DNA of 64,000 nucleotides from Asterochloris sp. CNOR1 (Eukaryota; Chlorophyta; Trebouxiophyceae; Trebouxiales; Trebouxiaceae). The stretch spans positions 2,046,001 to 2,110,000 of the forward strand of contig OZ017756.1 in assembly GCA_963969365.1 (NCBI GenBank), written 5' to 3'. Shown piece after piece: positions 3,001-64,000 of the stretch. The notes under the pieces were generated by a model. It saw nothing but the letters and a program-made list of their open reading frames with translations. It did no database searches and had not been told where the DNA came from. Position 1 is the first letter of the stretch, and every line of letters begins with the position of its first letter. A program made the translations under genes and the position numbers.

Positions 3001-6000
3001 ACCAAGACTGTCCATGGGGTCCCTGCAAGCGTGACACTGCAGCACCTAGCGCACCTATGCAGTCAAGCCTGCCCAGGCAGTGTTCAAAGCAACCACCATT
3101 TCAGTAATGATTCCCTGCAGCCAGATTTCTGCCACGTCTGGCGTACCTGTGCAGGTGGGCCTGCTGGCGGCGCAGGTGCTGCTTCAGCTCGTCGTTCATC
3201 AGGTGAACATCCTCCAGCTCTGCTCCAGTGCTATCGTCCTCCTCACTCACAAAGGGTGCCATCTGCAGGCGTTACTGATCACTTCACAGCAAAAGAGGTT
3301 ATCCTGCCTGCAAACTAGGCAGAGCCTCACATAAGCCTCCCTCAGGTGCTCTACTGTTTCTGTTGCCGATGGCACAGCGATAGCAATGCAGCTCATCCAG
3401 CAACTTACAGCAGCCAGGCCTCACATGGGCAAGGCGCACAAAGGCCTGCTTCATGCGCTCCTTGTCGCCGATGGCAAAGCAGCAGACAACCAGGTTGAGC
3501 CCAGCGCGGTAGTCTGCATCTGTCTCCATGATCTGCTCAAATGCCTGCATGGCGTCCTGCAGGCCAAACGCAGCTCCTGTCAGCGCACCCTCTGCTTGTT
3601 CGTGATGTCACATTCTGAGGGGCATGCGACGAACACAGCCCTCACCACTCAACAGTCACAGTGCCATCTGCCAGAAGCTCAGGCACGGTCAGGCCTTGGC
3701 TGAACGGCGAGTTTGCTGTTGCCGCTGGCAGTCCAATGAAAGCAGGAGCAAGCCAGCCAGGCCCCTGTAGCCCTTCCCTGCTAACCAATGCAGTGTTGAA
3801 AGAGCTTACAATGCAAGGCACACGCTATCTGGCGGCAGGCAGATGGCTTGCCCATCTTCTGGTGCTTGCGACCAGTAAGATGCCATGCTGCAGGGCACGC
3901 ATCACATGAGATGCCGCACAGGAGGCTGCGCCTGCCATGCACCTGCGACTGCAGGCACACCTGGTACTGCCCCAGCTTGATGAAGGCGATTGCGATGTTG
4001 CGCAGCATGCGCATGCGCGCGCTGCGATCTGCCGGGGGCACCTGGTCCAGCGCCATGCGGTACATCTTGATGGCTGCGGGGAACTTGCGCTGCTCAAAGT
4101 AGATGTTGCCCATGTTGACGCGCAGGCGCCCTGCCTGCAGGCACCGTGAGAAGGTGGGGGGCCACAAGCTGGGCAAGTATGTTGACAACTACCCCGTGAG
4201 CTGCTCCAGGCAGTTCCCGCCCCTGCTGCACCCCCTAGGAGTGAGCACTGCCCCAAAACACTGAGAAACCAGTTCAGCCCACCCGCACATGCGCCGTGCG
4301 CTGGACTGGAGCACATGGGCACTCGCTCCAGTCAAACTCGATGAGAGCAGCGCTGCAGGCTGCCCCCTTGTGCAAGCATGTGCCTTCAGCAATCGGAGTC
4401 TTTTCAACGTACCACCTGCAGAAGACATGTATGCAAACTTCCAGGGTCTGCCCACCTGGGCATGCGTCTTGCCCTTGATGATCTGCGTGTAAGCGTTAAG
4501 CGCTTCACGATACAGCTGGTTGGCCGCGTACATGTGAGCCAGATTGACTGCCACGCCAAACTGCAAGTCCAGGTTCAGCTGGTCCAGCAAATTGAGCTGC
4601 TCCCGCAGGCGCACCACACCACGTTCTCGTTTGACCGCATCTTTGGCGCGCTCTAGGGCTGCAGCACAGTGGTATGCTATGCCGCCATTGCAAGCTTGCG
4701 TGGCAGGCTTGGTCCAGCAAACCAAGTTGCGCTTGACTGCATGACTGGCCCACATCAGGGCAGCTACGCAGGAGCTCCTGTGCCCTAAACAGGTGAGTGC
4801 AGATGATCATGCCCTTCAGCAACCCCATCTGGTGACATGCTTGGCCCGCCCCAGAGCTGCAGCACAGCTTGAAGCTCAAGAGAAGCAGAAAGGGCGGAGG
4901 CACAACGTGGAACCAGAGCGGCTACCGCCCTAGCACGACTCAGGGCTGCAGAGCGCATCTGGCAATATGCTACGCTAAGACGGATATGCATGCCTGCTTG
5001 GCATGCATTGTCTGCAGGGCACATTGCACACTGGCGCTTCACTGCACCTTTGGTGCGCCCCAGGGCAGCAGGACGGCAGGTGTGGACATTGAGCACATAG
5101 AATTCTGTGGCAGCAATCCATCCAGACGAAAGTTAATGCATTTGTGCCTCTGAAGGCGTCCGGCGCCTGCACAGCTTGAGCTGCCTCGTGTTTCGCTGCC
5201 AGGTTTGGCCCGGACCCAACCTTGGGAGTTGCCTGCCAGCGCCTTTTTCGCGCATGCAATCCTGCACACCCCAGACCTGTAAGCACGTCTTGCGCCCGAA
5301 GAGCCTGGTCGCTCTTGCTCAGCACCACATGCGCGATGGCCTGACCAGCGTCCTAAGGGTGTGTACGCCAGCATGTTGACGGCACACGATACCCTGCACA
5401 TGTCACCTGTTGAGGCATCCTGCGCACGCAGAGCCTGAGCACTCTCGTCCAGCGCCACGTGCACCTTGGCCTCAGCCTCCCGGCACTGCTCATCTGGGCT
5501 GGCTTCCTCCACTTTGGCCAAGGGAGTGGCAGCCCGCCCTGTGGCTGCCTGGTTCAAAGGGTCAAAGCGCCCCCGGGGGCCTGAGCTGTACCCCGCGCCC
5601 TGCAGAAGCAGTGCTGATGGGCTTGATGGCCCACCCAGTGGCTGCCTGCTTCAAAGGGCAAAGGGCGTGAACTGGACCCTGAGCCCTGCAAAGTAGGCAG
5701 CATTGGTGGTAGCTGCTGGCTGCTGTTGGCTATCTCAGAGTTTTCGACACATTGAGTGTGATCTCGCGGCAACGTTCCTGTGTCGCGCTTCAGCGTGAGC
5801 AGGGTGGCGGTGCAGTCGCCGCTGGGATCCAGAGCCAGGCTGGCGCCCATGAGCCGGCGCGTTGTCCATGATTACATTGCCACCAGGTGCTACTCATCAG
5901 ATGACTGCCCGCTGCCTTCCCGGCTGGGTTTGCGCTTGAGAACGGCCCCAGTAGCTGTCTTACCGACTGCCAATTGCAGCCGCAATACAACAGTGCCTGA

Positions 6001-6679
6001 AGACAGCAAGGCCAGACTCCCTTTGGCAATGGCCCATGCACAGCAGGTGCTGCTCCTCCACGACTGTATCACACAGGAGGCCCGCAGCGATGAGATCTGC
6101 TCCCACCTTATTGGACGTCATGGGGCGTTCCCCAAGTTCAGCACCACCCGCAGTGCCCATGCGCATGGCTGTCCCAGGGGTGAGTGCAGTCCCCAAGCGG
6201 ATGGCAGCTGACGCCCTCATGCCGCTGGCCGAGCCCGGGGTCACGAGGGGGGTGCTGCGCCTGCTGGTCGTGGAGGGGCGCTCCATGCCTGCACACCCGG
6301 TCCAGAGTGGTGGTAGGCGGTGCAGATCACACAACAAGAAAGCGGAGAGGGGCTTCCCCCAGAGCCTGTGCACCTGCTGCACTGCTGAACCCTGCTGTTA
6401 GTCCACCTGCTGTTTGGTGTTGACTGGGCAGGAATGACAAAGGCCAATGCCGGCATTACACAGAGAGCCGGCAGCACCTGTGGCGAACTCGCCCCCAAAG
6501 TCTCCAGTGCTTGGACGAGCCTACAGGGAGGCAACGGGACCTCTGCAGCAACCTCTGCCAACACTGCAGAGGGTGTTTGCATGTCAAGGGCCTGTCAATG
6601 CGATTACCATGGCATCTGCTCCGCCCCCATACCCAGAGTAAAGGTCGCCCTGCAGATGCAAATCAAGCTTGTCCGACAT
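1..6679 (-). CDS. IFT88: Intraflagellar transport protein 88 (IFT88), 3' end outside window
   Basis: TPR subunit of IFT complex B, which carries cargo in growing cilia and flagella. Exons read on the minus strand in family order. The start exon 6608-6679 begins MSDKLDLHLQ and holds DLYSGYGG. Then come about 6478-6560; an exon with RLGTALTP and ERPMTSNK (about 6105-6290); 5410-5596 with FDPLNQAA and EEASPDEQ; 4458-4658 with LERAKDAVKRERG and NLDLQFGVAVNLAHMY; 3951-4138 with VNMGNIYFEQRKF and YRMALDQVP; 3420-3549 with CCFAIGDKERMKQAF; about 3147-3263; 2472-2661 with FNWCAEVL; 1594-1746 with RAATNLSFLHHLEGEQ; 832-1039 with EALYNLGLVYRQTGDL; and 310-429 with KAATEWFERL. The last TPRs and the stop lie beyond the left edge. 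Some exon borders between 2700 and 3300 are uncertain. The gene is head-to-head with the secreted-protein gene. The match to IFT88 is strong across the whole order. Confidence 0.93.
811..830. repeat. Interstitial telomere-type motif (CCCTAAA)n
   Basis: About three tandem CCCTAAA units, the last imperfect (CCCTAACCC), lie inside an IFT88 intron. They stop within 2 bases of the donor of the exon that ends near 832. TTTAGGG is the usual telomere unit of plants and of Chlorella-type algae. The array is too short to be a chromosome end, and genes continue on both sides. Confidence 0.85.
4658..5075 (-). repeat. Acceptor-side exon-edge array in IFT88
   Basis: The real exon starts at 4658 (CTGCAG then CCCTAGAGCGCGCCAAAG on the minus strand). 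Upstream in the intron, similar segments start at about 4856 (CTCTGGGGCGGGCCAAGC), 4945 (CCCTGAGTCGTGCTAGGG) and 5064 (CCCTGGGGCGCACCAAAGG). Each follows a CTGCAG or GCTGC-type acceptor. The 5064 copy still reads ALGRTKGAVKRQ against ALERAKDAVKRE in the exon. Confidence 0.75.
5280..5692 (-). repeat. Duplicated edges on both sides of an IFT88 exon
   Basis: The exon at about 5410-5596 ends in ALRAQDAST before its donor. A degraded second copy of that end, reading QALRAQDVLTG and followed by GGTCTGG, lies downstream at about 5283-5330. On the other side, plus-strand 5541-5605 (GTGGCTGCCTGGTTCAAAGG) reappears at 5636-5692 (GTGGCTGCCTGCTTCAAAGG), an offset of about 97 bp. Both borders of one exon have therefore been copied into the flanking introns. 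Confidence 0.7.
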
Positions 6680-6870
6680 AACAGGCACTCCATCAGACTC
6701 TGTGGCATGAGAGGTCCCACCATCATGGTCAAAGCTTGAGTGGTGCCGTGATTGTGAGATCTGGACAGGGGCACATCAGAGGAGAGCCCAGTATCTGGGC
6801 CAAGATGGCACCCCCACGGCCGCGGCAATCTCCCTCTTTCTTTCAAACTCTGCCAGGTCGGCAGAGCACG
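6680..6870. promoter_or_regulatory. Shared divergent promoter region, IFT88 / secreted protein
   Basis: This 191-bp spacer separates the two divergent start codons. It holds no exon that I can support, and I see no clear TATA box. A shared promoter is inferred from geometry only. Confidence 0.45.
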
Positions 6871-9800
6871 ATGGCAAGAAGAGGCCTGCCCGCCGTGGTG
6901 CTCTTGCTTTGCCTGGTCAGCTGTGTTTCGGCCGCAAGCTTCAGGGTAAGATGCAAAAAGTTCTCTCTCGCCTTCAGTTAGTCTTGCCTTGCCCCTCTGT
7001 GGCCGTCACCACCACTGCCTTTTGCAGGCATCACGCTGGAAGAAAGCTTCTGACATTGTGCACCCAATACTTGGCAACCACTTTGGCCACCACAAGGAGA
7101 AAGCTGCCCCAGCTGAGAAGGCCAAGGTCAAGACCAGAGGCGATGTGGCTTCAGAGATTATTGATGCCAAGCACCACGAGCTGACCCAACCTCAGGTGGA
7201 ACACCCTGACAACCAGCTTGTCTTGTTAGGAGGCTCTGTCTCTGCATGTCCATCTGTGTCTCTGCACAGCAACCAGCGGCTCTGAGTGGTCAAGATCCTT
7301 TCACGGAACTGCCTACGCTTGACTCACCACACTCAACAAATGCTTTGCAGAACACAACAGTGGCTGCTGGAGAGCTCGGGCAGGCCAAGCACAAGGTTAC
7401 CGCCGCTGTACCACCTGCTGGCAGCAACAGTACCAGGCTGCACGGGCCTCAGATCTCCAACATCACTTCTGCCAAGCCCCAGGCAGATGCTGCAGGGCCT
7501 GCTGCTGCTGGAAAGGACAGTCTCCCTGACATGCAGGGCAAGCCCCTGTCAGATGCTGCTGCTACAGGCAAGAACGCCACACTTGCCAAGCTGGGCAAGC
7601 CCCTGATAGACACTGCAGTGGCAGCTGCTGCTGGCAAGAACAGCAGCAGCTCCTCCAAGGCGTCTCCAGGGGCAGCTGCTGCTGGCAAGAACAGCAGCAG
7701 CTCCTCCAGGGCGCCCCCAGCAGCCAACTCAAAGCCCACAAAGCAGCAGGACACTCCCCAAACTGTGGAGGCAGTGTCTGTCGAGCGGCCTGCCAAGGCT
7801 GATCTGATCCAGCGCCTGCGAGACAAGGTGCTGGCCAAGCAGGCGAAGCAGGCAGAGTCAAAGCCCAGCAGCCCAACAGGTGGCCCAGGCCGGTCCGGTA
7901 GCGCACGGGAGATGGCTGCAGCCTGGACCATACCCCTTTCCAGCAGGCACAGCAGCAAGCACCGTGCTGTGCACGACAGCGCTGTGGAGGCTGCTGCTGG
8001 GCCTGACCTCGCAGCAGACAGCCACCCTGGCCACGCGGCCACCAGCAGCAATGCGACTGCTCCCGCCAGCAGCACAAACGCCACTGCTGCTGCTGGCAGC
8101 GCCAATGCGGCCACACGTGCTGGCAGGGTCAGGGGTGAGGGCCCTGTCAGCAGGTATGTGAGTGCAAGTGTGCTCAGCATGGTCACCGGCTCTGCTGATG
8201 GCAGGCAAAGCAGTTCATCTGCCTTGGGGGAGCACGGCAGTGTGCATGGGGTCTCAGGCAGCCAGAATGCCACTCTTCTGACGGGGAGGCATCATGGTGT
8301 GCCAACAGGCGGCAGGCACAACATGACCTCAACCACAGGCGCACACCTCCACCCAGCGAACAGCATCAGCACCAAACTCAGCCCTCCCAGCAACGTGACT
8401 GCCTTGAGCAGCAGCGCGGCTGCTGGTCCCCACAGCAGCACCACTGTTGCAAATGAGACTGCTGCTGCTGCACGCCACAGCAACCTGACTGCTGCCAGCA
8501 GCAGCGCCACTGCTGGCCACCACAGCAGCACCACTGCTGGCAGACACAACAGCACCCTGAGTGAAGCCAGGGTGGGAGGCCACCAAACAGTCAGCTATGC
8601 CAGTGACAAGCCTGCCGGCAGGCACAACGGCACCCTGCCAACTGCCGGCGTGGGCGGCCGTCACACAAGCGGTCAGGCTGCACATGGCATGCCAGGCCTG
8701 CACGCCCCAGCAGAAGAGGCTGCTGGCGTGGGCCACCTCAGCCATGAGCACACCGTCCCCAACACCACTGCTGCTGTGATAGGCGTGCCAAGTGCTGAGG
8801 CTGCTGAGTACAGGGACGCAGTGCAGCATCACAACACCACAACCACCCAGCACGGTGAGTACTGCTGAATTTCACCAGGTGTGCACTCTGTCCGTCACAT
8901 ATTCTGGTTGGCATGGTGAGACCTGCTGTTCCTCTCAGACTTTGTGCTTCACCTCTTGCATACCTTGACTGGCAGAGGGGCTGCCAGCACCAGTGCTCAG
9001 CATGGTAAGAGCTGCTCTGCCTCTCCCATGTCGTGCACCGCAGAGTTCACAGACCTCTGCGTACACAGCCCCTCAAGCTGCCTGCACTTACGTGTTCCAG
9101 CCCATGTCCAAGCCTCCACAGAGGCATACCCTGTCTTGATGTACAATACAGCACACCTGATGATTTGCCTCTCCTGGCCTGCAGACAATGCAGCGACCAC
9201 CCGCCACACCCACCGCTCTGCTGAGCAACAGGAATCGCGCACCACCCTCGATGAGGCTGGCATCCTGCAGCTGCCTCGAATTGACCATGTTGGGGCTGCT
9301 GAACCAGACAGCCTGGCTGAGAATGCAACCTTTGCCAACCAGCCCGGGACCGCACTGGCTTTGGAGACTGCAGAGGTCTCTGAGCTCACGGAGGACAGTG
9401 CTTTGGAGACAGGTATTACAGACAGAGATTGGCCTGTGCCTTGAGCACATTTTGTTGTCAGCAGCACCATATGTCAGGGAGGCATTGCTGTGTAGCAAGA
9501 GCAAACTTTGGCAACACATGCTACTCGTAAGTGCAGGGCCCAAACAAGTCATGGCTGTCTTCTCCTGCCACCGTATGGGCCAGAGACGCTGCTGAAATGC
9601 TGCTGTCGACTAGCTGAGCTTCTGCCATCTATGTTGCGCCTAGGTTGACAAGAGATACCCTCAAGGCCTTCACTGTCCGGCTGCTGGGCTTGAGTTCTGA
9701 GATCGACAGCAGCTTTGTCCTGCAGCCATGAAAACCTGACAGCTATGCAGGTCCAAATCATCATTGCCAGTCAAGCATATCCCACCCAGACTGGCAGCAG

Positions 9801-12306
9801 CTCTGTCATGCTGCCATAACAGGTCTGGACGACCTGTCAGCCTGGGTCCGAATCATCATTGCCAATCAAGCACGTCCCACCAAGACTGGCAGCAGCTCTG
9901 TCATGCTGCCATACAGGTCTGCACAACCTGTCAGCCCGGCATGTGCCACGGGTGAGCACCCGGCCCCACCACGGCGCCCATCCAGTCCAGGAGCGCGCTG
10001 CAGAGGCAGACCCACATCCAGCCGCTCACCACCCTCTGCGCTTGGAGCAAGACATTGCTGAGCAGCTGCAGGGGCCTGTCCAGGTGACTGCACACTGCAA
10101 CTTTGTTGAGGTGGTGGCAGTGAGGCAGGCCAAGTGCACAATCTTTTGCGCGCCTACACTAGCTGGGCAGACCTGTCTTGCCTTGGTCACACTATACCTT
10201 TGGGAGCATGCTGCGTTGCAAGTCTCCTTCAGTAGTATTGAGCATGCCTGCTGCAGGTGACCAGGCATTCTGTGCCATTGGAGCAGCCTGATCTAGCATT
10301 GCACCCACGAATGGGGCCAGACCAGTGTGATGACACTGGCCTGGAGGCTGAGAGGAGGGCTGAGGCAGCTGCAGCAGCAATGACTGAGGCCAAGACAGCA
10401 GATACACAGGCAGACTTGGCTGCTGAGACCAAAGTCGAGGGCAGCAGGGGTGAACTAGGGACTGCTACGTCTGTTCGAGAGGCCGCACTCAGGGCTGAGC
10501 AGGCTGCCGCTGCGGTAGGCAGGGAGGAAGCGCTGCTGGCTGAGCAGGCTGCCGCTGAGGCCAGCAGGGAGGAAGAGCTGCTGACTGAACAGGCAGCAGC
10601 TGATGCTGCTGCTGCCGTAGAGACAGATCTGGCTGCTGCCCAGGAAGCACAGAGCGCTGCTGAGGCCGATGCCGTTGAAGCTACGCGGGCCTCTGATGCA
10701 GGAGAGCTGCAGGCGACAGCAGGGGAGGATGCTGCAAAGGCCCTGGCTGCCAGCGAGGATGCTGCCAAGGCAGCAGCTGGCGCTGCCCATCAGGCTGCTG
10801 CTGCAGCAGCTGATGGCGATGCAGTTGCCATGGAGGCTCAGACGGCAGCTGGGCAGCCAGATGGGCCTGGCAGGGAGGTAGAGATGCTGCAAGCCGAGGC
10901 CAGCACAGAGGCTATAGCTGCAGCCACAGCTGCAGCAGCTGCCCAGGCTGCTGCTGAGGAGACTCTCAAGGCTACAGACACTGCAGATGAGGGGGCCGCT
11001 GAGGATGCAGCTGCGAGGGCCAGAGAAGACGCTGATGCTGCTGCCCAAGCTGCCTCGGACGCTGCCTTCTTGGCAGGGCAAGCGGTGGAGGCTGCTGGCG
11101 GCTTCAAGGAGGCGTCAGCCACCGCTGTAAGCGCCAATGCTGCAGCAGCTGATGCTGCAGCGGCTGACGCAGAGGCTGCAGCGGCCGCTGCTGCTGCGGC
11201 GGAGGCTGCCGGTGCGGCAGCAGTTGCCACTGAGGCTGCTGACGAGCAAGGCGGGGAGGTGAGCTCATGAGGAGAACCATGGGGCTTGCGCTGATAAGGT
11301 TTGATGATTTGACAGAGCTGTGATGCTGGCGGCTTTGCTGCTTGCCCCAAACCGGACCTCGTGTGCTGTATGAAGACGCGCTACAAGTGGCCGCATTCTC
11401 GTACATGATAACATCGCCAGACAATCACCTTTGTCGCTGCTGCAGGGCACTAGCTTGGACTCAGTGCAGCACCCTGGGACAGAAGCAGGTGCTGAGCACC
11501 TTGAGGGTGCAGCAGTTGAGCGGACTGGAGCTGAGGCAGAGCAGGAGGCCAAGTCCCAGGATGAGCCAGCCAGTAAGGCTGCCGAGACCACACCCATCAC
11601 CTTGTCCCTCACTGACTCTCAAGAGGTGTGACAGTCCGCCATTCTCCAGCCATCCTGCTGGTTCAAGTGTCCCAGGGCGCACAGCAGTTCTGCTCTCAAA
11701 ATCTCCTGCATTTCGGCACACAGCAGCCCAGCTACCGATGAGTTCCTCGCAGGCAGGCACACAGCAGCCAGCATGCCAAGAGATACCGTTCAGGGGCATA
11801 CACAGCAGCCCTGCTGCCAACACATGCCCGTCACGAGCATGGACACTCAGCAATGGGACACAACATTCAGATGTGACAAGCCTGGCTTGCAGGCCGCTCA
11901 AGGGCAGGTTCAGGAGCACCACAGGGAGGTTGCCTCAGCGCATGGAGCCAACACGACCAATGCGCGGCAGTGCCCCGGAAACCTGGGCCATGACTACGTC
12001 AATCAGATGCCTGAGCACTGCTCAGATGTGACCCCTGACCCAGCCTACACCTGCGATCAGCAGTGCACTTTTGAGGGCACCTGCGGCACCAGTTACTATA
12101 CCACAAATGGGTTCTGCGAGTATAGCTGTGGGGTCTGCGACTCTCTGCGCAGTCCAGCCTGCACTAATGTACCGCCCCCAGCCAGTAAGCAGGGCGTACA
12201 GTACACGTGCTACCAGCAGGTGGTTGTGTTTGGCCACAGCTGTGAAAACAATGAAATGCTGCAGGCGCCCTTCTGCAACAGCCAGTGCGGTCGCTGCGCC
12301 TTGTAG
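6871..12306 (+). CDS. Large secreted modular protein: N-glycan-rich region, Ala-rich region, two ShK-like Cys domains
   Basis: I do not recognise this protein as a whole. Nine exons close in phase: 6871-6945, 7028-7195, 7270-8854, 8939-9004, 9185-9412, 9917-10083, 10257-11258, 11446-11625 and 11893-12306, giving 1294 aa. Residues 1-21 form a signal peptide (PAVVLLLCLVSCVSA). Residues about 82-610 are Ser/Thr/Ala/His-rich with many N-x-S/T sites (NATAA, HNSTL, HNGTL), like a mucin or wall glycoprotein. Residues 764-1097 are extremely Ala-rich with regular Glu/Asp/Lys, probably helical or coiled coil. The last exon carries two tandem Cys modules (CSDVTPDPAYTCDQQ..CGVC and CTNVPPP..YTCYQQ..CGRC), the ShK-like form common in algal extracellular proteins. 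A cell-wall or matrix role is inferred. The acceptor of the last exon is the least certain point, because 11851 would also be in frame. Confidence 0.8.
9751..9940 (+). repeat. 95-bp tandem duplication spanning a 3' splice site
   Basis: Bases 9751-9845 and 9846-9940 are two close copies beginning GTCCRAATCATCATTGCC. Each contains CTGGCAGCAGCTCTGTCATG and then a CATA(A)CAG acceptor. Splice phase requires the second acceptor (exon at 9917), so the first (about 9822) is a duplicate upstream. A weaker trace precedes it near 9700-9750. Confidence 0.9.
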
Positions 12307-12684
12307 GGTGCAAATTGGAACGGCCACGTATGATTGCCACCGCATGTATGTTCTGAAGGGCCCCTGTCTGCATGATCACCGCGACATGTTGCGTTTGGCA
12401 GGCTCTTACTTGCATGTACCCATGCTGCTCAGTGAGTGTCAGCACCTTTCTTCTATGTGCTCGAGCCAGTGTCTAGTATCTCAAGGCCCCTCTGTCCACC
12501 ACCAGTTGAAGCACAATGCCCATGAGGACGAAGTGTTCATTTCTATATTCATTGTCAGTGCACCATCTGGAGCACACATCATAATCTCAACTCGTGAGCC
12601 TATCAGTCAGCAGCTTCATGCACACCTGATATCGAAATGCTGTGCGAGCCATGACTGAAGCCTGGGCAGCCTTCACATGCCAGT
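12307..12684. other. Intergenic spacer between two same-strand genes
   Basis: This 378-bp spacer runs from the stop of the secreted-protein gene to the start of the FG-GAP gene. It must hold the 3' end of one and the promoter of the other. It is more AT-rich than its surroundings after 12530. I see no coding exon or clear element in it. Confidence 0.4.
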
Positions 12685-20926: not shown

Positions 20927-21035
20927 AGTCCTGACTCTGCCCACCAGTTGGCCCATTCATGAAGTGTTCAGCATTGAGTTGACTTGAAATTAGAGTGTCA
21001 GCAAAGCACATGCTCGACCTGAAATACAGGGTAGT

Positions 21036-24000: not shown

Positions 24001-24393
24001 AAACATGTCTGCACTTGCCGCCTGTCTGACCAAGAGCTGGCAGCAACACCAGGAACAGGACTGAAGATCGCTGCAGCTGACAAGACGAGACCTGTTGCTG
24101 AGCAGGTCTCGCCAGCACCTCAACATTGTGAGCGCATATGAGACTGCTGCTTGTCTGAGGCAAGACCTGCCACCTCAAAGCCTGTGACAGTACAGTCAGA
24201 ACATTACCTGCCAGCATCGCCTCACTGCACAAGGGCAGACACTGCCTCCAAAGCTATGCTTGCTGCCTGTGAAAGCCACAACTCCCACCTTGGCAGGGCT
24301 CTTGGACAGCTTGCTGGCTCCAAGTTTGTCCTTGATGGTGCTGACCAGCGTGGCATTGTCATACTTCACCAGGGATTGCAGCGGCGGTATCAT
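21036..24393 (-). CDS. DNALI1: Axonemal inner-arm dynein light chain p28 (DNALI1 / IDA4 type)
   Basis: This light chain binds several single-headed inner-arm dyneins with actin and is needed to assemble them in motile cilia. Seven exons close in phase on the minus strand: 24289-24393, 23764-23846, 23283-23397, 22324-22476, 21946-22068, 21243-21351 and 21036-21085, giving 245 aa, close to the family length. It starts MIPPLQSLVKYDNATLVS. Then come QADDILNSILPPREW, VSSTPATRLDVITLQEKLD, the hallmark FDELIREVTINCAERGLLLL, RVRDEMRMTIAAYQTLYES, FGMRKALQTEAGKSDMEQ and a coiled-coil tail ending KQLKQQLETLLAPKK. It is tail-to-tail with the NERD1-type gene (109 bp) and head-to-head with PDH E1 alpha. 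Together with IFT88 it implies a motile flagellum at some life stage. Confidence 0.97.
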
Positions 24394-27974: not shown

Positions 27975-28114
27975 ATGCACATCTGACCTTTTTGCATTTG
28001 CTCTTTCTGCTTGATGCTGTGCAAGCACCCACAGTCCTTACAGCACTGCTGCCTCAAACTATTTCAAGCCAGCGAGAGAGCCAGGCTCATGAGAATGCCA
28101 ACAGGAGAGGTGTT

Positions 28115-47520: not shown

Positions 47521-47631
47521 CTGCTTTACAGGCCTTTGTGTGAGAACATCTGTTGACGTCTGCATATCCACTTGTCACATATTAACTTGAACAAGCTGAC
47601 TCTCACGGAATGAAGCCGGTGTTTGGTGCAT

Positions 47632-53127: not shown

Positions 53128-53324
53128 TGTGCTTTAATCTTTATGAGTCACTCAGACCTCCACGACAGCGCGCTCTTGTCTGATGGCAGCTTGGCCGGCG
53201 GGGTCAATGATCTTGAAGCAAGAAGGAGAAGGATTCAGCCGGTCAAACGGGAATAAAAGCAGTGGAACCAGAAGAGTGTGAGCAGGCGTCCCTGTTCTGT
53301 GTTGTTATTACTGCGATTTACAGA
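53128..53324. promoter_or_regulatory. Divergent promoter region, La / CruP-like
   Basis: A 197-bp spacer separates the two opposite start codons. Its sequence is less GC-rich than the exons. I see no exon in it. A shared promoter is inferred from position. Confidence 0.45.
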
Positions 53325-56300
53325 ATGCAGCACCCATCGCTGCTGCCTGGCAAGCATGCACATAACATATGGCCTCTCTCGAAGCCTGCTGCATGTCACG
53401 TGCATCTAGTGCCCCAGCTTTCCCAACAGCACCGCTTGTACGCCACCTTGCAAAGCTCTTCAGCTGAGCAGCAGCCGCTGCAGCAGTCACAAAGAGCCTT
53501 CAGGGAGTCAATCTCAGAGCCAGGCAGCGTGGTACATCAGATATTGTCAGATCCCGGCATTGAAGGGGATGCCCTGAAATTCTTGAAAGTCACTGATGCC
53601 TACTGGTCGGTGAGTGCCAGAGCTGCCGTGCAGAGCTTATCAGCTTTGCGCTCAGCTGCACGCAGCTGCTGTCTGCAGGCCCTGAGGAAAGGGCAGACCA
53701 AGCGGGCCCCCACAGTGGTCAGGACACACACGCGAAGGCTGAGAAAGGAGCCCAAGTTTGATGTCTGCATGTGTGGTGGGACTCTGGGCCTCCTACTGGC
53801 CCTGGCCCTGCAGGCAAGCCAAGACAGCAGTGCATGTGCAATGTGTCTGTGTGGTTTTTGAAGCATGCTAAACACGTCCCGAGTCATGCGGCAGGAGGCG
53901 TTCGTGCGCGGCCCTCAATGACTAAACATGTGCTGTGTCTGTCCCGAGCTTAGTTTGTGGTCTGCTATCCATGCTGCACACCTCCAATACGGACGCCAGG
54001 CACATGCACCAGCTGGCACATGCACAGCCACTGCTGAGCTGATGTCTGCCACCTGGGAGCGTCCAGGGTTAGGGCACAGCCTGGCTGGCGGCATACCCAT
54101 CTGCCTGCACTCATAGAGCGCTGCACACATGCACAGCCTCAGTGCTGCTGAGCTGATGTCCGCCGCCTGCCTGCCTGCAGGTTCGGGGCCACAACGTGTG
54201 CATCATTGAGAAGCGAGTGGCAGAGGGGAGGTCGCAGGTGTGTACCGCGCCCTGACACCCACAGCCATCAGCATGCAGCACCGAAACCCAGCAATGTACC
54301 AGTCCCAGGCTGTTGCGCTTGGCAGCAGTGCTTGCTGGCTGTCAGAGAGGTCTGCACGCCGCAGTGTGACGACAAGTAAATACCATCTGAAGCTGCAGTC
54401 CTATTTGGCAGCCAGAAGAGATGCACTGCAGTACCATGCTTTGGCGCTTGGCCGTCACCAGCGTATGGCACCAAGCTGATGCCTGCCCTGTGCTGCAGGA
54501 GTGGAACATCAGCAGGAAGGAGCTGCAGGTAGGGCTGTGCACTGGGACAGTATGCTGCTGGTTTCCCTGTGACTTGCATCCCACACAAATATATAGCAAT
54601 ATGATGTGCATTCAGAAGACTGCCACCAGGCACCAGGAGCCAGCCATACTGCTTGGAAAGGTGCCTTCAGACCTGCACTGGGTCACCTTGTGCCCAGAAT
54701 GTCAGGTGGCGTATGCTGCCAGAGGCTGGGGCTGCCGCTCAGCAACCATCGCCAGCTGTTGCCTCAACCCAGAAGCTCTGGCTGCCCTGTGCAGGTGCTT
54801 GTCAGCTGTCAGCTGCTGACAGAGGCTGAGATGGAGGAGTGCATTGACACCGAGTTCAACCCCACAAACGTTGCTTTCAGAGGGGGCCACACCATTGAGG
54901 TCGAGGACTGCCTCAATCTTGGTGTCAGCCCCAGGTGAGCAGCAATAGCATGCTGGCTGCATTGACGCTGCTGCAGGGCTGTGCTGTCATAAAGAGGCCC
55001 AGTCCTGTCTTCACCTCAATGCTGTGCACACTCGTGTTGACAAACCTGTAGCCAGCAGGCTGCTACAGGTGAGCAGCAATGACCTCCGTGCATGAGGGCA
55101 GGCTTGTGCCATGCAAGCCTGACGCCATGCAGCATTTCACAGCCTGCTCTGCCAAGTGGTAGCATGGGTCTGCTGCAGCCAGGCCAGTCAGTCAACCGGA
55201 CTCCAAGCCTTGTTGTTCATGATGCAAGGATGACTGGGTTGTCTTGCTGGGAGACATGCAAGAGCTGCTGCCTTCCATCTCTTGGCTTGGATGGGTCCCA
55301 TGGAGCTTCACAAGTGCCGCTCTGCTGAAGGTCAATTCGGCTGAAGCTTGAAAATGAGAACCGAGCAGGTGCCAAGATGCGTCTGAATTTGACTGGCTGC
55401 AGGCGCCTGCTGGCCACATTGCGTGCCAAATTCGAGGCTGCGGGCGGTGCCATCCGGGAGCACACTGCTTTCAGGACTGCCGACATCTACCCAGATGCTG
55501 TCAGCATCAGGTGGGGCTTGTTGACGTCGCAAAGTGCAGCTGAGCCTGCATTGCTGCCAAGACCACTCTGCTATGGCTACTCAAGCCAACTTCCCTCAGC
55601 TGCTCATGCGCTTACTGCCCTGACTCTCGTGCTCTGGGGCAACCTATGTCCAACCATGCTCCTGAGCAACCTCTTTACTGCGGGATGCAGCACTGCTGGC
55701 GATCGCAGCAGTCTAGGCATCTCTCCAGCAGACGCCAATCGGCCCACGGCTGTCCCCTCAGACGCCCATGACGGCGAGGAGGCAACTGTTACAAACGGAG
55801 CCTCAGCTGCCAGAGACAGCAGTAATGGGGCCTCCCACCTGAATGGCAGTGGAGCTGCTGTGGGTGGGCGTGGGAAACGAGCTGACGGCAGGCATCAGTC
55901 GCGACTCCAGCAGGGACAGCAAGGGGATGGAAGCTCGTCACATGGCGCTGCAGCAGGCGTATCAGTAGGCTCAGATCGACCTGGTGGGCGGGGTCCTGGC
56001 AGCGCTGGGGACATGGAGCGGAGCGCGGTGTCGTGCAGGCTCCTCATAGACTGCATGGGGCATTACAGTCCCATTGTCCAACAGGTGGGCTTGACGGACA
56101 CAGGTCTGGCCATCTGCAGTCTGCACAGCTGTTTCTGGTGTGATGTCCTGCCCTGCAGCTGACCACCCTGCGCTGCTTGACACCAAAGCTGAACTTAGCC
56201 ACTGCCTGCCGGTGCCAGGCCATGACTCTTGGACCTGACCAGACAGTCATGACCCAGGCTAGACCTGAAGCCCGGTGTTGATCTGCAGATACGTGGGTCC

Positions 56301-59185
56301 CACAAGCCGCCAGGCATGTGCCTGGTGGTGGGCGGCTGTGCAGAAGGGTTTCCGGCAGAAAAGAACAGGTGTGTATCTGGATTTACGTCGCCCGGTCGGC
56401 AAATGGCTGCTGTGTTCTGCCATGTCAAGCTGCTGCGTTTGATTGCAAGCCAGACTTGTCAGAGGTTGCCATAGCTGCAAGCTTGCATCTGCATGAGGCT
56501 GCAGCTTCCCTGCTTGGCCAGAGGTATGTCACAAAGTGGTGACGTAAACATGAAGCGGTCTGTAGGTTCGTCCTGCTCTGCATGCAGGAGTGGTGATCTT
56601 CTTCGCACTTTCACAGATGCTGAAGATGACATGCAGCTGTACTGGGAGGCCTTCCCTGCAGCAGGAGGATCCATGCGAACAACATGTAAATGGCTGCAGC
56701 ATTTGACGCACATCAATGCTGGTTCAGGTTCCAGTCTTGCCCTGGCAGGCGTGAACATCTGGCTGCATCTTATGCTCTTTGAGCACACAGGCTGCAGGGC
56801 TCTGGAAAGCTGCAGTGCTGGTTGGTTTGCTGGCGCATCTGTGCGCCACTGACATGCTGGCCTGCTGCGTGCAGACATGTTCACTTATGCAGACGCTGAC
56901 AGGCATCGTCCTTCTTTTGAGGTGAGCAAGGCTGGGCTGGGCTCAGCCGCATTTGAGCTCACTTTGTGCGCAGCGTCGTGTCAGCACTGATTTGGCCATC
57001 GCTGCTCTGCACCTGCTCCCCAGGCATGACGGCTGCGCAGTTTCTGGAAACCTGCCATATCAGTATGACCGGGCATGTTACACGCCTTGCTTGTAACAAC
57101 ATGCACTGAGCACTTGGTGATGCTGCCCCAGTACTAGAGGAAGGCCCATGTCTGTTCACTGCAGCAACCCTTTTGTGCCTGCAGCAACTTTTAGAGAAGT
57201 ACTTCCAGCTGCTGCCTCAGTATCAGGGCGTCCCTCTAGAGCAGCTCAAATTCCACAGAGTGCTGTTTGGCGGGTTTCCCTCCTACGAAGAGGCTCCCCT
57301 GAAGCCGCATTTTGACAGAGTGCTGCAGGTGAGCTGTTGAGCTGGCGTGCACCTTTGCGCTCATTCTGCAGTGCTGCTGTTTGCTGCATGCACCAATTTT
57401 TAGCAGTAGCACATCATCTCAGAGTCTTGCTGGGTTTGACTACATGCTTGCACTTCCACTGTGCTGATGGCGGTGGTCCCATTGCTGTGCAGCTGTCCTG
57501 CCTTCAGCAACGGAGGCTGAGGCAGATCCTGAGCAACTAGCTGCGATGCAGATAGGAGATGCCAGCGCATCGCAGAGCCCTCTATCCTTTGGAGGGTTTG
57601 GCAACATGCTGCGCCATCTGCCTCGCCTCATCGAGGGCACAGACCAGGCACTCAGGTGAGGCCCCAACGTGGCATGGCCCTGTCGGCATGTGGCATCTCC
57701 CTGTGCAACTATTCATTGCCTACCATGCCCTTCATGCTCGGCTGCTGGCACTCCAACAATCTAGATGAAGCTACCACAGGTCCCAGTGCTGCGCATTGCT
57801 GCACCAAATCATTGATGGCTGCATACATCCTGCCCAGCTGCCATGCAGAGATGGGCCCCCCGACTGTACCAGCCTTCGTTGGTGTAAGTGACTTTTGGAA
57901 TACTGCAATGCAGTGTGGGTCATGCAGCCAGCAATCTCTGGCCCCTCATGCAGCCCGTACAACCCATTCTGTGTACCTGCTGCATCCAGCCAGATTGGTT
58001 GTTGCTGACTGCCCTGCGCAGAGAGGCACCTCGGCCACAGCACTCTTTCCCCCCTCTTGCGACCCTGCCTATGCAGCCGACTGCCCCTGCCTGACTGCGT
58101 GGACTGCACTGCAGGGGGAGACATCAGTGTGAGCGATCTGTTCCTCCTGCAGGCAGGCCACCCCTACTTGTTGGTGTAGGCCAAGATCCTTCTTGCTGCC
58201 ATACAGAGAGGGGCACCTCAGCCGGAGCGCTCTGTCCCTCCTGCAGCCCTACCAGCCCTCGCTGTCAGCTGCCTGGATGTTCCAGCGCTCCATGGCCCTC
58301 AAGCGGGGACAGCTCAGGCAGGCGCACCACACCCCTGGAGGCCACCCCTCGCGGCGGGAGGGGTGGGTGCCCCCCAACCAAATCAACCGGCTCCTTTCCT
58401 GCAACTTTGCAGTGATGCAGGTGGGCTCTGGTGGCGGCCCTATCTGCCTGCTGATCCTGCCAGCATACGATGAAGCATCCACCCCTCCCAATACCCCACT
58501 AACTGGGGCACAGCTGCCTGCTCTCGTGCAATTGGCAACGTAGCATGTGACAAGCCATGGCTGCACTGATTGGCCGGTGTGCCATGCTCTCCTGCAGTAC
58601 AGGAGCCGAGCAGCCCTGTAATGCAAAATTTGCATTAAAGTTGCCATGTACAGGGCCCTGACATTCCTCTGCAGCCCCGTATTGCTAAAATGGTGGCCTC
58701 GCTATGCACCTATCTGCTGTTATTTGCAGAACCCCAGCGAGCCCTGACCCCTTGTATCCCCCTGTGCAGTATTTTGGAGATGCGGTGATGCGCCCCTTTC
58801 TGCAAGACACCATCCAGTGGCTACCCCTGACAGTCTCTATGGTGGGCATGCTCGTCAAGGACCCTGTCCCCGTTGTGCGGTCAGTGTTCCAGGTGAGCTG
58901 CAAGCAATGGCAGCTGTGACTTGTTGGCAAATCGCCATGTCTCTGAGCTCTTTTCTTGCCCAGCTGCCTGCTTGTGCAGTATGCTGCAAAACAGCCACAG
59001 AACACCTGGGAGCTGCTGTGCAGGTTGGGCCAATGCACCTGTTGAGGTGGGTGCGCCACTATGTTTGCCTGGGGCTGTTCACCATCCTGCATCTCGCGTT
59101 CAAGCCTCTGCGGCGCTTCGTGAAAGCCTTCTGGCTTCTCAGACTGGCGGACTCCTGGGAATATGGCTCAGGGCAGGATCACTAG
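53325..59185 (+). CDS. CruP-type FAD-dependent lycopene-cyclase-like protein, plastid
   Basis: CruP is a plastid paralogue of the CruA lycopene cyclases, tied to carotenoid and oxidative-stress balance in plants and cyanobacteria. Exon 1 (53325-53609) begins with a Ser/His/Gln-rich likely transit peptide. Exon 2 (53679-53813) has the FAD-binding start FDVCMCGGTLGLLLALALQ. Then come RGHNVCIIEKR (54181-54237), the 30-nt exon EWNISRKELQ (54499-54528), FNPTNVAFRGG..VEDCLNLGVSP (54795-54934), 55403-55510, LLIDCMGHYSPIVQQ (to 56083), GMCLVVGGCAEGFP (56289), DMQLYWEAFPA (56625), MFTYADADRHR (56877), QLLPQYQGVPLEQLKFHRV (57184-57327), IGDASASQSPLSFGGFG (57552-57654), QPSLSAAWMFQRSM (58203-58420), FGDAVMRPFLQDTIQWLPL (near 58770) and a hydrophobic C-terminus (59021-59185). 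A Gly/Ser/Ala-rich insert of about 110 residues precedes LLIDCMG. The intron after exon 2 uses a GC donor. Confidence 0.85.
57836..58250 (+). repeat. Acceptor-side array in the CruP-like gene
   Basis: The true exon segment CTGCCATACAGAGAGGGGCACC (about 58196) reads GHLSRSALSLLQPY. Related units begin near 57839 (CTGCCATGCAGAGATGGGCC), 58008 (CTGCCCTGCGCAGAGAGGCA) and 58101 (ACTGCACTGCAGGGGGAGAC). The 58101 copy reads GDISVSDLFLLQ in frame. The last three are spaced about 93 to 95 bp. Confidence 0.85.
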
Positions 59186-59354
59186 AAGGATCAATCTGCA
59201 GCAGCTGCCTCATGTCTGATGATATTTCGTTTGCTCCCTGCCTTAAATAGTGACATTTCTTTTCATGACTGACTTCAACTCAATGAATTTTGAACTTATC
59301 GTTCATCAGACCCACATTGAATTCTGGACATGAAATGATGTGTTATGCTGCTTC

Positions 59355-62300
59355 TTACTGCCTATTGCCATTTCCAGAAGCAGGAGCATTTGTTGAGCTG
59401 CGCAGGCCCTTGAAGCTTGACAGAAACCCAGATGCTCCGCTTGTGAAGCCTGACAGGCTGCTGCTGCTGAGGCCACCAGGAAATGCAGAGGGAAGCACAT
59501 CTCCAAAGGACTGCTGTGCCATCGCCGTGACTTCGGCAGCCTTGCCGCCGAGCAGAGAGCTGAATGCCCCCAAACGCTCGCTCGTGCCAGTTGTCAACCT
59601 ATTCTGCAGGCCCTGCAAAGTAAGCAAAGCATCTGTCTCAGGTGGCTTGGTTCATAATCAAAAGATGGCAGTGCTGCAGGAATGGTGGCAGAGAATGAGC
59701 AGGAGGAAACAGGCACCAAGCCAGGCCATGGCATTGCTTTGAAGTAGCACACCTCAAAGGTGGATGCTCCGCTGCCGTCAGCTGCCTGCTGCTTGTCAAC
59801 AGCTGTCCCAGCAGAAGTTCTGCTGACAGTCAGGTTGGCAAAGGAATAGTCCTCAGAGTCATCCAGTTCCAGCCCAGCTGTTGGGCTGGGCACTGCCATG
59901 GCTCCATACTTTGTGATGACCCCAGAGGCTGCCCGCCCTGCTTGCAATCAATCACGGGGCTGGCTTGTGACCAACATGGTAGTGGAAACATTGGTTGTCG
60001 TAAGTGCCGTGAACATCAACATATGTGAATTATGCTGGTTTCATCTAGAATACAATGGCTCAGCAGCTGTCAGCGGCTGAATTTGACATGAGGACACCAA
60101 CCCTTGAGTAAGAGGCTTTGAACAGTCTTTTGGCTGGCCGCATCTGGGCACTCAGACAGGTTGAGGGGTTGAGGGGCAGACACAAGTTGTGGAGTCTGCC
60201 AGCAGTCAGCAACAGCTGCACAGAGGTGCTTGAGCCACAGCAGCTGACACTGCTCTGGACCTGCACTGCTACGAGGAGGCAGGCAGAGATCACAATCTTG
60301 TGCTCACCTGAGGTTGCCAGTGAAGGCATTGAGATTGGCAGATATGAGAAGCGGGCAGTGGAGGGTGCCACACTCATGATGTTAGCATCTGTAGAGGTGG
60401 CAGGCTTTGCAGCAGCCTGCAGCGCAGTCAGCATCTAACTGCAGCAGATGTAGCCTGGGTGAGGATGGGTGCAGCTTGGCTTGTTTCAGGGTCAAGTCAG
60501 TCCTAGTGTTGGTTACTGCAGGCTTACCATCTGTCTCGCAGGACAGTCAGCCTGTGCAGGTATGCATTTGGCATCTGTCTGCAGTGTGGTGTGTAGGCGA
60601 GGCGCTATACACGCAGGCAGCAGCTTTTGGTACGAGGGCACGGTGCATTGCAACAGCAGCTTGCTTGTCACAATGGCAGGCATGGACGGCCAGCCCCAGC
60701 AGCAGTCGCTTCTGGGTCAAAACCCTGCTGTGGCCCAGCAAGCAAGCTGCAGATCCACATGCTCATCACAGACAACATCAATCAGGTGTCTTGATCAGCA
60801 GCTGTGGTCCAGCAGGCAGGCTGGTGGCTGGTCACCTCAGGCAATGTGCAGCAGAGTGAGGCTGTCAAACAGCTGCCTCCTGGGCCAGAGCCCTGCTGAG
60901 GCAAAGAAAGCACAATGACCCACAGGCCCCTGGACTCACCCCTGGGGGCCGTTTGTTCAGCAAAGTGAGGCTGCCAAACAGGGTGGCCGTGCGGTGGCAG
61001 AAGGTGGCCACATTCTGCCACAGGTAGGGCTCATAGGTTGCCCAGTCAATGGGATCCAGCCTGCCTGGGCTGTGCAGCAGCTCCTCTACTTCAGTCATGT
61101 CCCGCCTCTGCTGCGCAACTGCTGCTGAAGGGGCAACAGCGGCCGGACCTGGCCTGCATGACCAGCGACTCAGGTGAGAATATCAATTCAGATCGGCTCC
61201 CACGCAAGGCCCTCTGCAGAGGGAACAGTCCATGCTCAGCTTGTTTTCAGCAGCACTGCAGACAGTCTGGATCTGAGACGTGGCTATGACCTTTACAAGG
61301 CAGAGGCTTCTGCACAGCACAGCCTGTTGGCACAGCGTCGCATGGTGCTGCAGGACGTGCCATGCAGCCAGTGCATTCTTCCAACACTCCTACTGCCACA
61401 CAGGAAGCTTCAAGCACTTGTATTTTACACGTAAAGCAGCAGGGCAGCAGGTCAGTCAGGGCCCAGCTGACCGTTCCTACTGTGAGATAAGGGGAATTCT
61501 GGAGCACAGACAGATCAGGGGCCCACCTGGCTGTAGGGGCTGCGCGCATCTCCTGAGCAGGCTTTCCGCTGGCCAGAACAGTCTGCGCAAAGCGGACATC
61601 AAACAGCAGCTGCAGGACGCCCTTCTCTGACAGGCAGTTGGCCAGGAGGCCGCCAGGCTGCAGGCCCATCCTGCAGAGTCCAGACAACCAGGCTGCCCTG
61701 TTGTGTGGGGGTGGCACGGTGCTGCAGTTGACCCCAGTGCCCATGCTGCCTGCGCTTCTGACTGGAGTCCAAACGGCCCAAAGCAGCATTGTCAGTCTTA
61801 TGGAAGTAAAACGCGGAGGGGATCTGATGTCACAGTCAATGCGACCCACGAGAACACAGCAGGGAAATCCCTCTTGGCATAAGGTGAGGCACAATTTTAG
61901 AGGTTGTTGTTGGCAAGCACTCCGCATGCAGTCCTGCAGGGAAGAACAACGATGCACAGGACGGCCTGTGCTGCAACACCTCAGAGGTGCCATGACTGCA
62001 CGTTTCAGCTCTCCGTAAAGCACGCGCACAGCGTGTGGGCAGCAGGCAAGCAAGACTGCACGCAGATTATGAGACACTACAGAGTAATAGAGCATAGTGT
62101 CCAGACATGAGCTGCGTGTGCCCCCACCTGAGGACAGCCACAATGGCACGACCCAGCTCCCAGGACATCAGGTGCACCGCCGTGGAGCTGCAGGCAAAGC
62201 TGCCTGCGCGCTGCAGCTCACGGCAGGCGGCCAGCAGCAGCATGAGCATGGCTGGCGAAGCTGCCGCTGGCAGGCTAAAGCGCATCTCCACTGCGCCACT

Positions 62301-64000
62301 ACCCATGTCTGCTTCCTGCAGCAGAGGCAGCATGTGGGCGGTCAAGGGCTGCTGTGTATGACAGGTGAACTGTGAAGGGTGCATGGAAACGCAGCTGAGG
62401 CCAGACGTGTCCCTCCTGCAGTTGCAGCCGCATGTGTGCAGTCAGAGCTGATGCACTGACAGATCTCTGGCAGGGTCTGGGGAAGCCACAGAGCAGCAGT
62501 GTGCCGAAGGCTGTGGGTTGGGTGTTGACGATATAGGTGCTCCTGCAGCTGTGCGTTGGCCAACACAGGGGGTGGGAGCAGCTATTGTAAGTGTGGCTGG
62601 GGTGTTGATGCAGCTGACACCAAAAAGCCAACAACCCATCATCTGTGGCTGAGATCTGGCGTGGCTCCACAAATGAAGCACTACAGGTGCGTAAAGCTGC
62701 CATTCCTGCCTCACCTGCTGGACAACTGTCTCTGCCCATGTCTTGAGCACAGCAGTGGCTGAGAAGACAGGGTCCTTCCCCAGAGCAGCTGCCAGCTCCA
62801 GCGACAGCCCTGCAGCGGCCCAGGTAGCCCACGTCTCGTAGCTGGCTGTGCTGACCTGCCTGCAAAGCAGCTGGGGCATGGCTGCAATGAGCATGAGCCT
62901 GCTGCTTCTTCTGGAGAGCCGTGCACATGGCCATGCTTCACAGAAGTGGAAGTTGAGGTGCCCCATGCCTGGGAAGCCAGATACTATCAGTGCTGAAAGC
63001 ATGCAGATCCCAGTCTTCAGAGATGCAATGCTGCTCCTGGCAGACTGCACAGGCCGCTCCAGCACTCGCATGACAGCTTGGGCAGCATTGACTGACTGCC
63101 AGCACTGTGTGAAGTTTGCATACATCATCCTTGAACAAGCTGGTGCAAAACAAAGTGACGGGACACCTCTCCATGATCACCTGCACTTTGCCCGGAGTGC
63201 TGTGAGCTCCTTACTGTCGTGCTTTGCCCGGCGGCTGGATGGCCGGCCCAGCTGGGCCCCTGCAGCGCTGAAAATCTGCACAGCTGTGCTCTGCTGCGAC
63301 TGCCAAGCGTCCGGCGACGATAGCACCAGCTGTAGCGCGGGGCTGCTGCCCAGTATCTGGGCTACACTGCCTGCAGGCATGGTAAGGCTTGCTGAGCATA
63401 AGCACTGCAACAGCACCATGAGGCTAGATGTGTTGCCTGTTGACCCCAGACTGCATGGCAAACCCAGGCAACCAGCAGTGTTGTTTGCATTTCAACCTCA
63501 TGCACAGACTTGTGTTACCTGCAAATTACTTCAGGTGCACATGATGTTGGCTGCTTGTCAACCACAGCGCAGAGCAGTGCAATGCAGGCAGACTGAGCCC
63601 GTCTGCAGGTCCAGCAGCTCCCCTGATCCCAGCCTTGCACAGAAGCACATCTGGCTCAGCGCTCTGCACTGAGCCCTGCAAACACGACCAGCTGCCAAGC
63701 ATGTCAGATTCTGCAGCTGGAGCTGTAAGAACCCACTCAACAGCAGGGCCTGTTCAACAGCTGGGAGCCTCTCAGTCAGCAGGGCCTGCTAAACAGCTGA
63801 GGCACCACTAAACAGCAGGGCCTGCTCAGCAGCTGGGCAACTCACCAATCAGCAGAGCCTGCTCCACAGTGCCCGCCCCAGCCACATCGATGCCGGCCTC
63901 AGGCAGGCTCTCCAGCTGCTGCTGGAGGTGGGTCAGCACGGCATGAGCCATGGCTGAGGCATGCTCCAGAATGGAAGGCTCCAGAGCTGCTGCACGTTTG
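59355..64000 (-). CDS. COG1: Conserved oligomeric Golgi complex subunit 1 (COG1), 5' end outside window
   Basis: COG1 belongs to lobe A of the COG vesicle tether for retrograde Golgi traffic. Minus-strand exons match plant COG1 in order. At the right edge is KRAAALEPSILEHASAM and VEQALLI (63850-64000). Then AQILGSSPALQLVL (63185-63379), ASYETWATWAAAGLSLEL and SATAVLKTWAETVVQQ (62715-62855), VEMRFSLPAAASPAMLML (62128-62322), KGVLQLLFDVRFAQTVLAS (61530-61628), LDPIDWATYEPYLWQNV and RTATLFGSLTLLNK (60945-61130), NIMSVAPSTARFSYLPIS (60305-60430), LDDSEDYSFANLTV (59755-59945), and the last exon with RLGAFSSLLGGKAAEV, ending SGNGNRQ at 59355. The N-terminal part lies beyond the window. Tail-to-tail with the CruP-like gene (169 bp). 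Some exons between 62900 and 63170 are unresolved. Confidence 0.92.
63735..63875 (-). repeat. Donor-side array with period about 37 bp in COG1
   Basis: The motif CAGCAGRGCCTGCTCMACAG occurs four times, near 63740, 63777, 63812 and 63851. The last is the real exon end (GAGCAGGCTCTGCTGATTG|GTGAG on the minus strand). This is the shortest-period example of exon-edge copying here. Confidence 0.88.

Follow-up and report, generated by a model that had tools for sequence, protein, structure and literature searches.

Introns of the green alga Asterochloris sp. CNOR1 hold degraded copies of the exon edges that border them, and we consider it probable that these copies belong to a wider set of tandem duplications that occur in all classes of sequence, are filtered by what each gene needs, and are absorbed by the intron where they fall on an exon-intron border. 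The window that we analysed is a stretch of 64,000 nucleotides (contig C11:2046001-2110000) of a 56.4-Mb genome of 21 contigs, for which a preliminary description, made from the sequence of the window, had proposed introns built from tandem copies of exon edges. The exon-edge copies are real, extend beyond the window and occur on all five sampled contigs, but they are weaker than first described. Taken as a whole they form a record of tandem duplication that is ordinary in kind but dense, still readable and seemingly filtered by splicing, and part of the excess at exon edges is left over without an explanation.

The sample combined the window with 50-kb pieces of four further contigs, C1 to C4, 264 kb in all or 0.5% of the genome. 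The same 264 kb served to train an ab initio two-strand hidden Markov gene finder, whose models comprised 74 genes (counting those with at least 300 coding bases) and 391 introns, with a median intron of 295 bp, a median exon of 134 bp, about 340 bp per intron, and the splice consensus CAG/GTGAGC ... CTGCAG/G. For comparison, PMC6652019 gives a genome of 56 Mb for Asterochloris glomerata, with 9 introns per gene, a gene length of 4240 and an mRNA length of 1400. Three of our models are backed by protein homology, namely IFT88 (to 8bd7, E 3e-144), pyruvate dehydrogenase E1-alpha (to 3exf, E 3.4e-108) and the p28 dynein light chain (to 7ju4, E 9.3e-119). We take 8bd7 and 7ju4 to be Chlamydomonas structures, and the closeness of the IFT88 and p28 matches to them points to a green alga. 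Most modelled junctions of the three genes agree with the homologues, and three wrong stretches were seen: an 11-residue insertion and a further exon without counterpart (4283-4352) in IFT88, and a 21-residue run in p28.

An ungapped comparison of the window with itself gave 12 to 37.5 matches per 100 offsets at 20-200 bp, and no direct repeats were found in three dinucleotide shuffles of the window or at offsets of 2, 5 and 10 kb. We then used two measures of exon-edge copies. In the first, the 40 exon bases adjoining a junction, splice site excluded, were compared with their own intron at a score of at least 14, in 292 introns of at least 120 bp with both flanking exons at least 40 nt. A match was present in 10.6% of the introns on the acceptor side and in 10.6% on the donor side, and 60 of the 292 carried a copy. 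Dinucleotide shuffles gave 1.3 and 1.1% for the two sides; the corresponding figures were 0.5 and 0.3% for swapped introns and 0.7 and 2.4% for reverse complements, and mid-exon pieces gave 1.1% of 190. By this test 19 of 138 edges in the window were matched against 1 in swapped introns, and without the window C1 to C4 gave 43/446 against 2/446. Taken singly, C1 gave 9/104 edges against 0 (p=0.0033), C2 12/102 against 1 (p=0.0026), C3 11/118 against 0 (p=0.00077) and C4, the weakest, 11/122 against 3 (p=0.05).

The second measure used longer units, in which 30 intron bases were joined to as many as 60 exon bases, at a score of at least 15, in the 335 of the 391 introns that reach 120 bp. It returned 197 matches, 189 of them with at least 8 exon bases, and at least one of the latter in 114 of the 335 introns; in the window 35 of 81 introns were matched, in 14 gene models of which some are probably fragments of one gene. 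The same 335 introns gave 22 matches when swapped and 31 as reverse complements, and about 11-16% of the longer-unit matches are therefore expected by chance. That chance or composition bias could account for the whole is next to inconceivable: CTGCAG-rich sequence yields some background, seen in these control matches, and the difference on C4 is narrow, but the controls lie far below the observed counts, which refutes it, and the copies stand in direct orientation on their own side of the exon.

The direction of the copies bears out the preliminary description, which had placed acceptor-side copies upstream of the exon and donor-side copies downstream. Among 205 exons, own-side matches amounted to 13.7%, whereas on the crossed side acceptor edges matched in 2.4% and donor edges in 1.0%, which is near background; in C1 to C4 alone there were 20 and 19 on the own side and 3 and 2 on the crossed side, of 154. 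What is copied, in direct orientation and on the intron side of the border, is the exon edge together with the adjoining intron, since at least 2 intron bases are also present in 156 of the 189 matches with at least 8 exon bases and absent in 33. Pieces at the exon edge match in about 14% of cases, and those starting at least 60 nt inside the exon no more often than background, as expected for units near 100 bp, and exon-only alignments begin within 10 nt of the junction in 81 of 127 cases, compared with 28 of 110 in five rounds of swapping. The nearest copy lies at 70-120 bp in 33 of 82 cases; these spacings and start positions were measured with the last 40 intron bases included. Nucleosome spacing is one conceivable origin of the peak at 80-110 bp. 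The preliminary description gave periods of about 35 to 180 bp; we find them broad, with few short ones at borders (see below).

The predominance of copies with intron flanks also bears on intron gain by tandem duplication (Rogers-type), to which the preliminary description had linked its finding and which could in principle leave tandem exon-derived copies in introns. Such gain predicts that the 5' end of an intron resembles the start of the downstream exon, and its 3' end the end of the upstream exon. Among 349 introns these signatures amounted to 0.3% and 0.0% at a score of at least 14; at 12 or above they rose to 0.9% and 0.9%, against 0.0% and 0.3% in swapped introns, so that a few cases are possible. 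With the signature near background, the process looks like lengthening of introns and not their gain, although old gains would have faded, and we regard Rogers-type gain as a very improbable source of the copies.

Several other parts of the preliminary description proved too strong. Its copies "always" included the splice site; we find AG or GT retained in 105 of the 189 matches, altered in 42 and not reached in 42. Where alignments with a score of at least 18 span the junction by at least 8 nt on each side, it is retained in 41 of 62, near the fraction of about 0.57 expected from their 75.5% identity. Two to five copies per edge had been described, and among 132 affected edges 93 have one copy, 25 have two and 14 have three to five. 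Nor can introns be said to be built from copies, as matches with a score of at least 17 cover 10,886 of 132,214 intron bases (8.2%), a lower bound because this coverage measure skips the last 40 intron bases and is blind to short periods, a limit that applies equally to its identities, intron lengths and copy order. On that measure, introns with copies have a median of 502 bp (100 introns) and those without 236 bp (291 introns), in part since long introns offer more room.

By the same measure, identity reaches at least 90% in 5 of 152 edge copies and lies at 65-85% in 134; most copies are old. The process had been called ongoing, which these identities do not show, although 9 of the 28 arrays with a period of at least 20 reported by Tandem Repeats Finder (TRF) for the 264 kb have a match of at least 90%. 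Six of the 28 arrays lie at borders, including 3 of those 9. An age ladder leading outward from the exon was not evident, as the nearest copy and the next copy were closer to the exon in similarity in 16 and 14 cases. With mostly single copies at 65-85% identity and few TRF arrays, the copies do not resemble a minisatellite, which has many near-identical units set head to tail.

The copies are non-coding and have lost their frame. Of 98 indels in them, 86 have a length that is not divisible by 3. Mismatch rates at the three codon positions are 0.216, 0.191 and 0.285, and the slight rise at the third is what constraint on the true exon alone would produce. It is for this reason highly unlikely that the copies are functional tandem exons or mutually exclusive ones: some copies are locally in frame, and the gene finder took two of them, 1499-1531 and 15262-15296, for exons, but the copies reproduce the edge of the exon only, where mutually exclusive exons would be whole copies retaining frame and both splice sites, and nothing in the IFT88 of 8bd7 corresponds to the 11 residues encoded by 1499-1531.

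Tandem duplication is not confined to borders. A count of local tandem pairs in the sample gave 247, compared with 5 when a band of the same width was taken at offsets 3000-3688, and by class they comprised 90 border, 87 intron-intron, 28 exon-exon, 20 other, 19 intergenic and 3 ambiguous pairs. Pairs thus occur within introns, between genes and, in frame, within exons (the period is divisible by 3 in 26 of the 28 pairs within single exons), and their presence in all classes suggests that duplication is general, each class keeping what it can bear. Periods below 60 bp are found in 28 of the 87 pairs within introns but in 6 of the 90 border pairs (p=1.6e-5). We read this shortage at borders as the removal of duplications whose two splice sites lie so near each other that mis-splicing would be expected. 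The preliminary interpretation therefore stands as far as gene-local tandem duplication at borders, on five contigs and with added intron length, is concerned, and fails where it makes the process one of borders only.

To account for these patterns we propose the following course of events. Tandem duplications, often of about 50-120 bp, would arise in every sequence class of the genome, possibly by breakage and fill-in. Introns could tolerate any of them, and exons would retain nearly only those in frame. A duplication spanning a junction would be tolerated when splicing takes the copy beside the intact exon, presumably the last acceptor or the first donor, because use of the exon-proximal site leaves the spliced product unchanged. 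The extra exon edge would then become part of the intron, lengthening it by a unit, and would go on to decay without coding constraint.

Some of our observations weigh against this account. The intergenic pairs, 19 in number, are few, and that class may include missed genes. The in-frame result for exons is partly circular, as the gene finder needs open frames, and it derives in part from a few repetitive proteins, including one at 7246-12306. Two of the six TRF arrays at borders have short periods (25 and 31 bp), and detection and the classification of pairs may add to the scarcity of short periods there. The exon edges were taken from our own ab initio models; comparison with homologues was made for three genes and revealed model errors in two of them. 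The ratio of edge to interior matches is 2.5 (bootstrap 1.9-3.35; 228 introns of at least 250 bp), while a uniform neutral simulation gave 0.84-1.36 in 14 runs, and eight earlier runs with other rates were alike. Uniform duplication with neutral decay is therefore not the whole account.

One could read this residue as a border-biased process, in which duplication strikes borders more often than other parts of the intron or copies derived from exons last longer, for example through the chromatin found at the ends of exons, through breaks linked to transcription or because additional splice-like sequence is slightly beneficial. The ratio persists with longer exons, at 2.8 (2.07-3.99) with both exons at least 80 nt and 2.4 (1.73-3.67) with both at least 120 nt, and the splice dinucleotide is retained slightly more often than expected and is invariant in the best array. 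A bias centred on borders should, however, raise the matches of the 40 intron bases beside the border, and these stand at 6.1%, compared with 5.7-7.7% in deeper intron; with the border-adjoining intron no richer than the deep intron, the residue is unlike extra duplication at borders. A conserved exon partner could, by our reasoning, account for a ratio of at most about 1.7-2 (a simple calculation gave 1.5), and the lower bounds of the ratio reach down to values that exon constraint can attain. The simulation, moreover, is simplified, and the subtracted background of 0.011 comes from swap controls. On balance we consider a border-biased process tenable but rather unlikely. The stronger proposition, that short tandem duplication prefers borders or that there is active retention of exon-derived copies, which would make border copying a main genome-wide route of intron growth with fossils readable in a large share of introns, appears to us doubtful, and somewhat more so.

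The duplicated units look gene-specific, as had been described. All four unit queries matched only themselves in the 56.4 Mb, in a search that misses faded copies, local ones included, and comparing the 391 introns with one another, drawn as they are from 0.5% of the genome, gave 2 cross-intron pairs. Within the limits of that sample and sensitivity, similar introns in many genes, the mark of a dispersed introner or transposon family, were not seen, and we judge such a family exceedingly unlikely as the source. On C3, two neighbouring introns starting at offsets 37539 and 38104 (plus strand) share 60 bp at 85% identity, perhaps as a tandem copy of exon and intron.

It had also been suggested that the process seeds decoy splice sites, for which we find no clear build-up. 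Acceptor-like sites in introns numbered 60 in sense against 38 in antisense (p=0.033) in one test, a weak excess, and 238 against 201 (p=0.086) in another, uncorrected for the number of tests, and donor-like sites showed no excess in introns (178 against 175, and 72 against 77). The motif TGCAGG is scarcer in introns on the sense than on the antisense strand (189 against 279, p=3.7e-5, uncorrected), perhaps through removal of full acceptor decoys.

Copies in the window are listed in Table 1. In IFT88, 8 introns lie within the protein alignment, and 6 of them hold a match with a score of at least 18 and 7 at 15 or above, the seventh being weak and exon-only. Both IFT88 (304-6286, minus strand) and the inner-arm dynein light chain p28 (21036-24393, minus strand) are flagellar genes kept by the organism. 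When used as genome queries, 5230-5332 in IFT88 and 51540-51720 each returned only themselves, and the matches at 51204-51270 and 51110-51152 are near threshold. The best array, 15236-15810, comprises four copies and the true exon edge, and TGCAGCTG is invariant in all five. Its copies (15236-15668), read by eye, are spaced 113-129 bp apart, with a long gap in one and an early TAG in two. The array is missing from the longer-unit matches because the gene finder took the first copy as exon 15262-15296; the true exon was modelled as 15712-15848 with a gene start, and the FG-GAP matches of the neighbouring model fall below the Pfam cut-off. Two further repeats were noted in the window: the gene at 7246-12306 (plus strand) has a predicted product of 1199 residues, rich in Ala, Ser and Gly, with in-frame tandem repeats of 51 and 45 bp and a Cys-rich C-terminus, and 63733-63869 holds a 36-bp array of 3.8 units with 75% match, in a stretch that is ambiguous in the gene models.

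Table 1 Exon-edge copies and related features in the window (positions are those of the window)
Position	Strand	Feature	Score or other support
1178-1228	-	Copy of start of exon 833-1033, IFT88	21.5; alignment
1499-1531	-	Second copy of start of exon 833-1033, IFT88	Alignment; called as 33-nt in-frame exon by gene finder
1805-1859	-	Acceptor-side copy of exon 1594-1746, IFT88	19.5
2969-2998	-	Donor-side copy of exon 3147-3262, IFT88	22
3306-3378	-	Donor-side copy of exon 3425-3556, IFT88	21.5
4715-4784, 4836-4867, 5014-5084	-	Three acceptor-side copies of exon 4439-4658, IFT88	19, 20, 24.5; junction within IFT88 alignment
5250-5332, 5137-5189	-	Donor-side copies of exon 5407-5599, IFT88	28.5, 20.5
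5638-5696	-	Acceptor-side copy of exon 5407-5599, IFT88	28.5
9792-9845	+	Border copy in tandem duplication 9750-9936	44.5, top match of window
9750-9936	+	95-bp tandem duplication carrying copy 9792-9845 and extending into exon 9917-10083	TRF 95 bp x 2.0, 91%; genome search returned itself only
14727-14799, 14553-14615	+	Acceptor-side copies of exon 14851-14977	22, 20; offsets 106, 292
15236-15300, 15365-15432, 15486-15550, 15600-15668	+	Four degraded copies of acceptor and start of exon 15749-15848	Alignment
15749-15848	+	Exon with copied 5' edge, FG-GAP-like gene	Acceptor 15748/15749, frame by eye
16405-16461, 16509-16548	+	Donor-side copies of exon 16174-16264	31, 18
19790-19851	+	Donor-side copy of exon 19571-19758	33
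26157-26212	+	Acceptor-side copy of exon 26244-26386, pyruvate dehydrogenase E1-alpha gene	24; junction within 3exf alignment
33372-33416, 33470-33530	+	Acceptor-side copies of exon 33564-33701	31, 19.5
36234-36308	-	Donor-side copy of exon 36340-36454, ubiquitin hydrolase-like gene	23.5; Pfam UCH
39145-39217	-	Acceptor-side copy of exon 38932-39103	31
39980-40066, 40078-40127	-	Acceptor-side copies of exon 39760-39942	32.5, 20.5
42368-42420, 42261-42325, 42085-42129	-	Three donor-side copies of exon 42516-42846	22.5, 20, 22.5
49325-49390	-	Donor-side copy of exon 49461-49642, RRM_3 gene	28; Pfam RRM_3
49685-49752	-	Acceptor-side copy of exon 49461-49642, RRM_3 gene	29
51538-51612, 51463-51527, 51370-51411, 51204-51270, 51110-51152	-	Five donor-side matches of exon 51665-51877	34.5, 16.5, 22, 15.5, 15
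51931-51983	-	Acceptor-side copy of exon 51665-51877	21.5
54037-54083	+	Acceptor-side copy of exon 54181-54237	20.5
54675-54728	+	Acceptor-side copy of exon 54795-54934	18
57812-57859, 58009-58051	+	Acceptor-side copies of exon modelled 58180-58420	18.5, 23
61956-62038	-	Donor-side copy of exon 62128-62315	19.5
62407-62444	-	Acceptor-side copy of exon 62128-62315	18

Sequences rarely preserve a record of where intron length comes from, since neutral copies fade. In the present sample, between about a fifth and a third of introns still show where their length came from, with direction, and the absorption of an extra exon edge by splicing thereby becomes directly testable. Faded copies may be mistaken for exons by gene finders, as happened here at 1499-1531 and 15262-15296, and other gene sets may hold such false exons. 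Gao and Lynch reportedly found in 2009 that eukaryotic genes often carry internal duplications, some of which include whole introns; their work reportedly concerns duplications inside genes and not degraded exon edges within introns.

The preliminary description knew of no genome saturated with multi-copy forms, and our searches of open-licence PMC papers turned up no account of a genome with pervasive border duplications; passages of two algal genome papers (PMC12712428, PMC11126685) yielded nothing on intron duplications under the terms searched. Introners, intron-making elements reported in green algae among others (PMC9860276), form dispersed families, whereas the units described here are local. 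As to origin, fill-in by CST and polymerase alpha-primase at DNA breaks leads to homology-independent small tandem duplications, according to PMC8355091, in mammalian cells with induced breaks, and a similar route would be plausible for this alga. Tandem duplication is a well-described source of introns (PMC3443670, PMC2891723), and the mechanism they describe resembles our case in the short tandem duplication at exons and the reuse of splice sites; it differs in needing an exonic proto-splice site and in producing a copy without intron flank. In the RNA-dependent RNA polymerase (RdRp) gene of potato, according to PMC4974935, a tandem duplication across an intron-exon boundary made, in one recent case, a new intron with a cryptic donor; in Asterochloris sp. 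CNOR1, existing introns have seemingly been lengthened, on both donor and acceptor sides, in 60 of 292 to 114 of 335 introns depending on the threshold.

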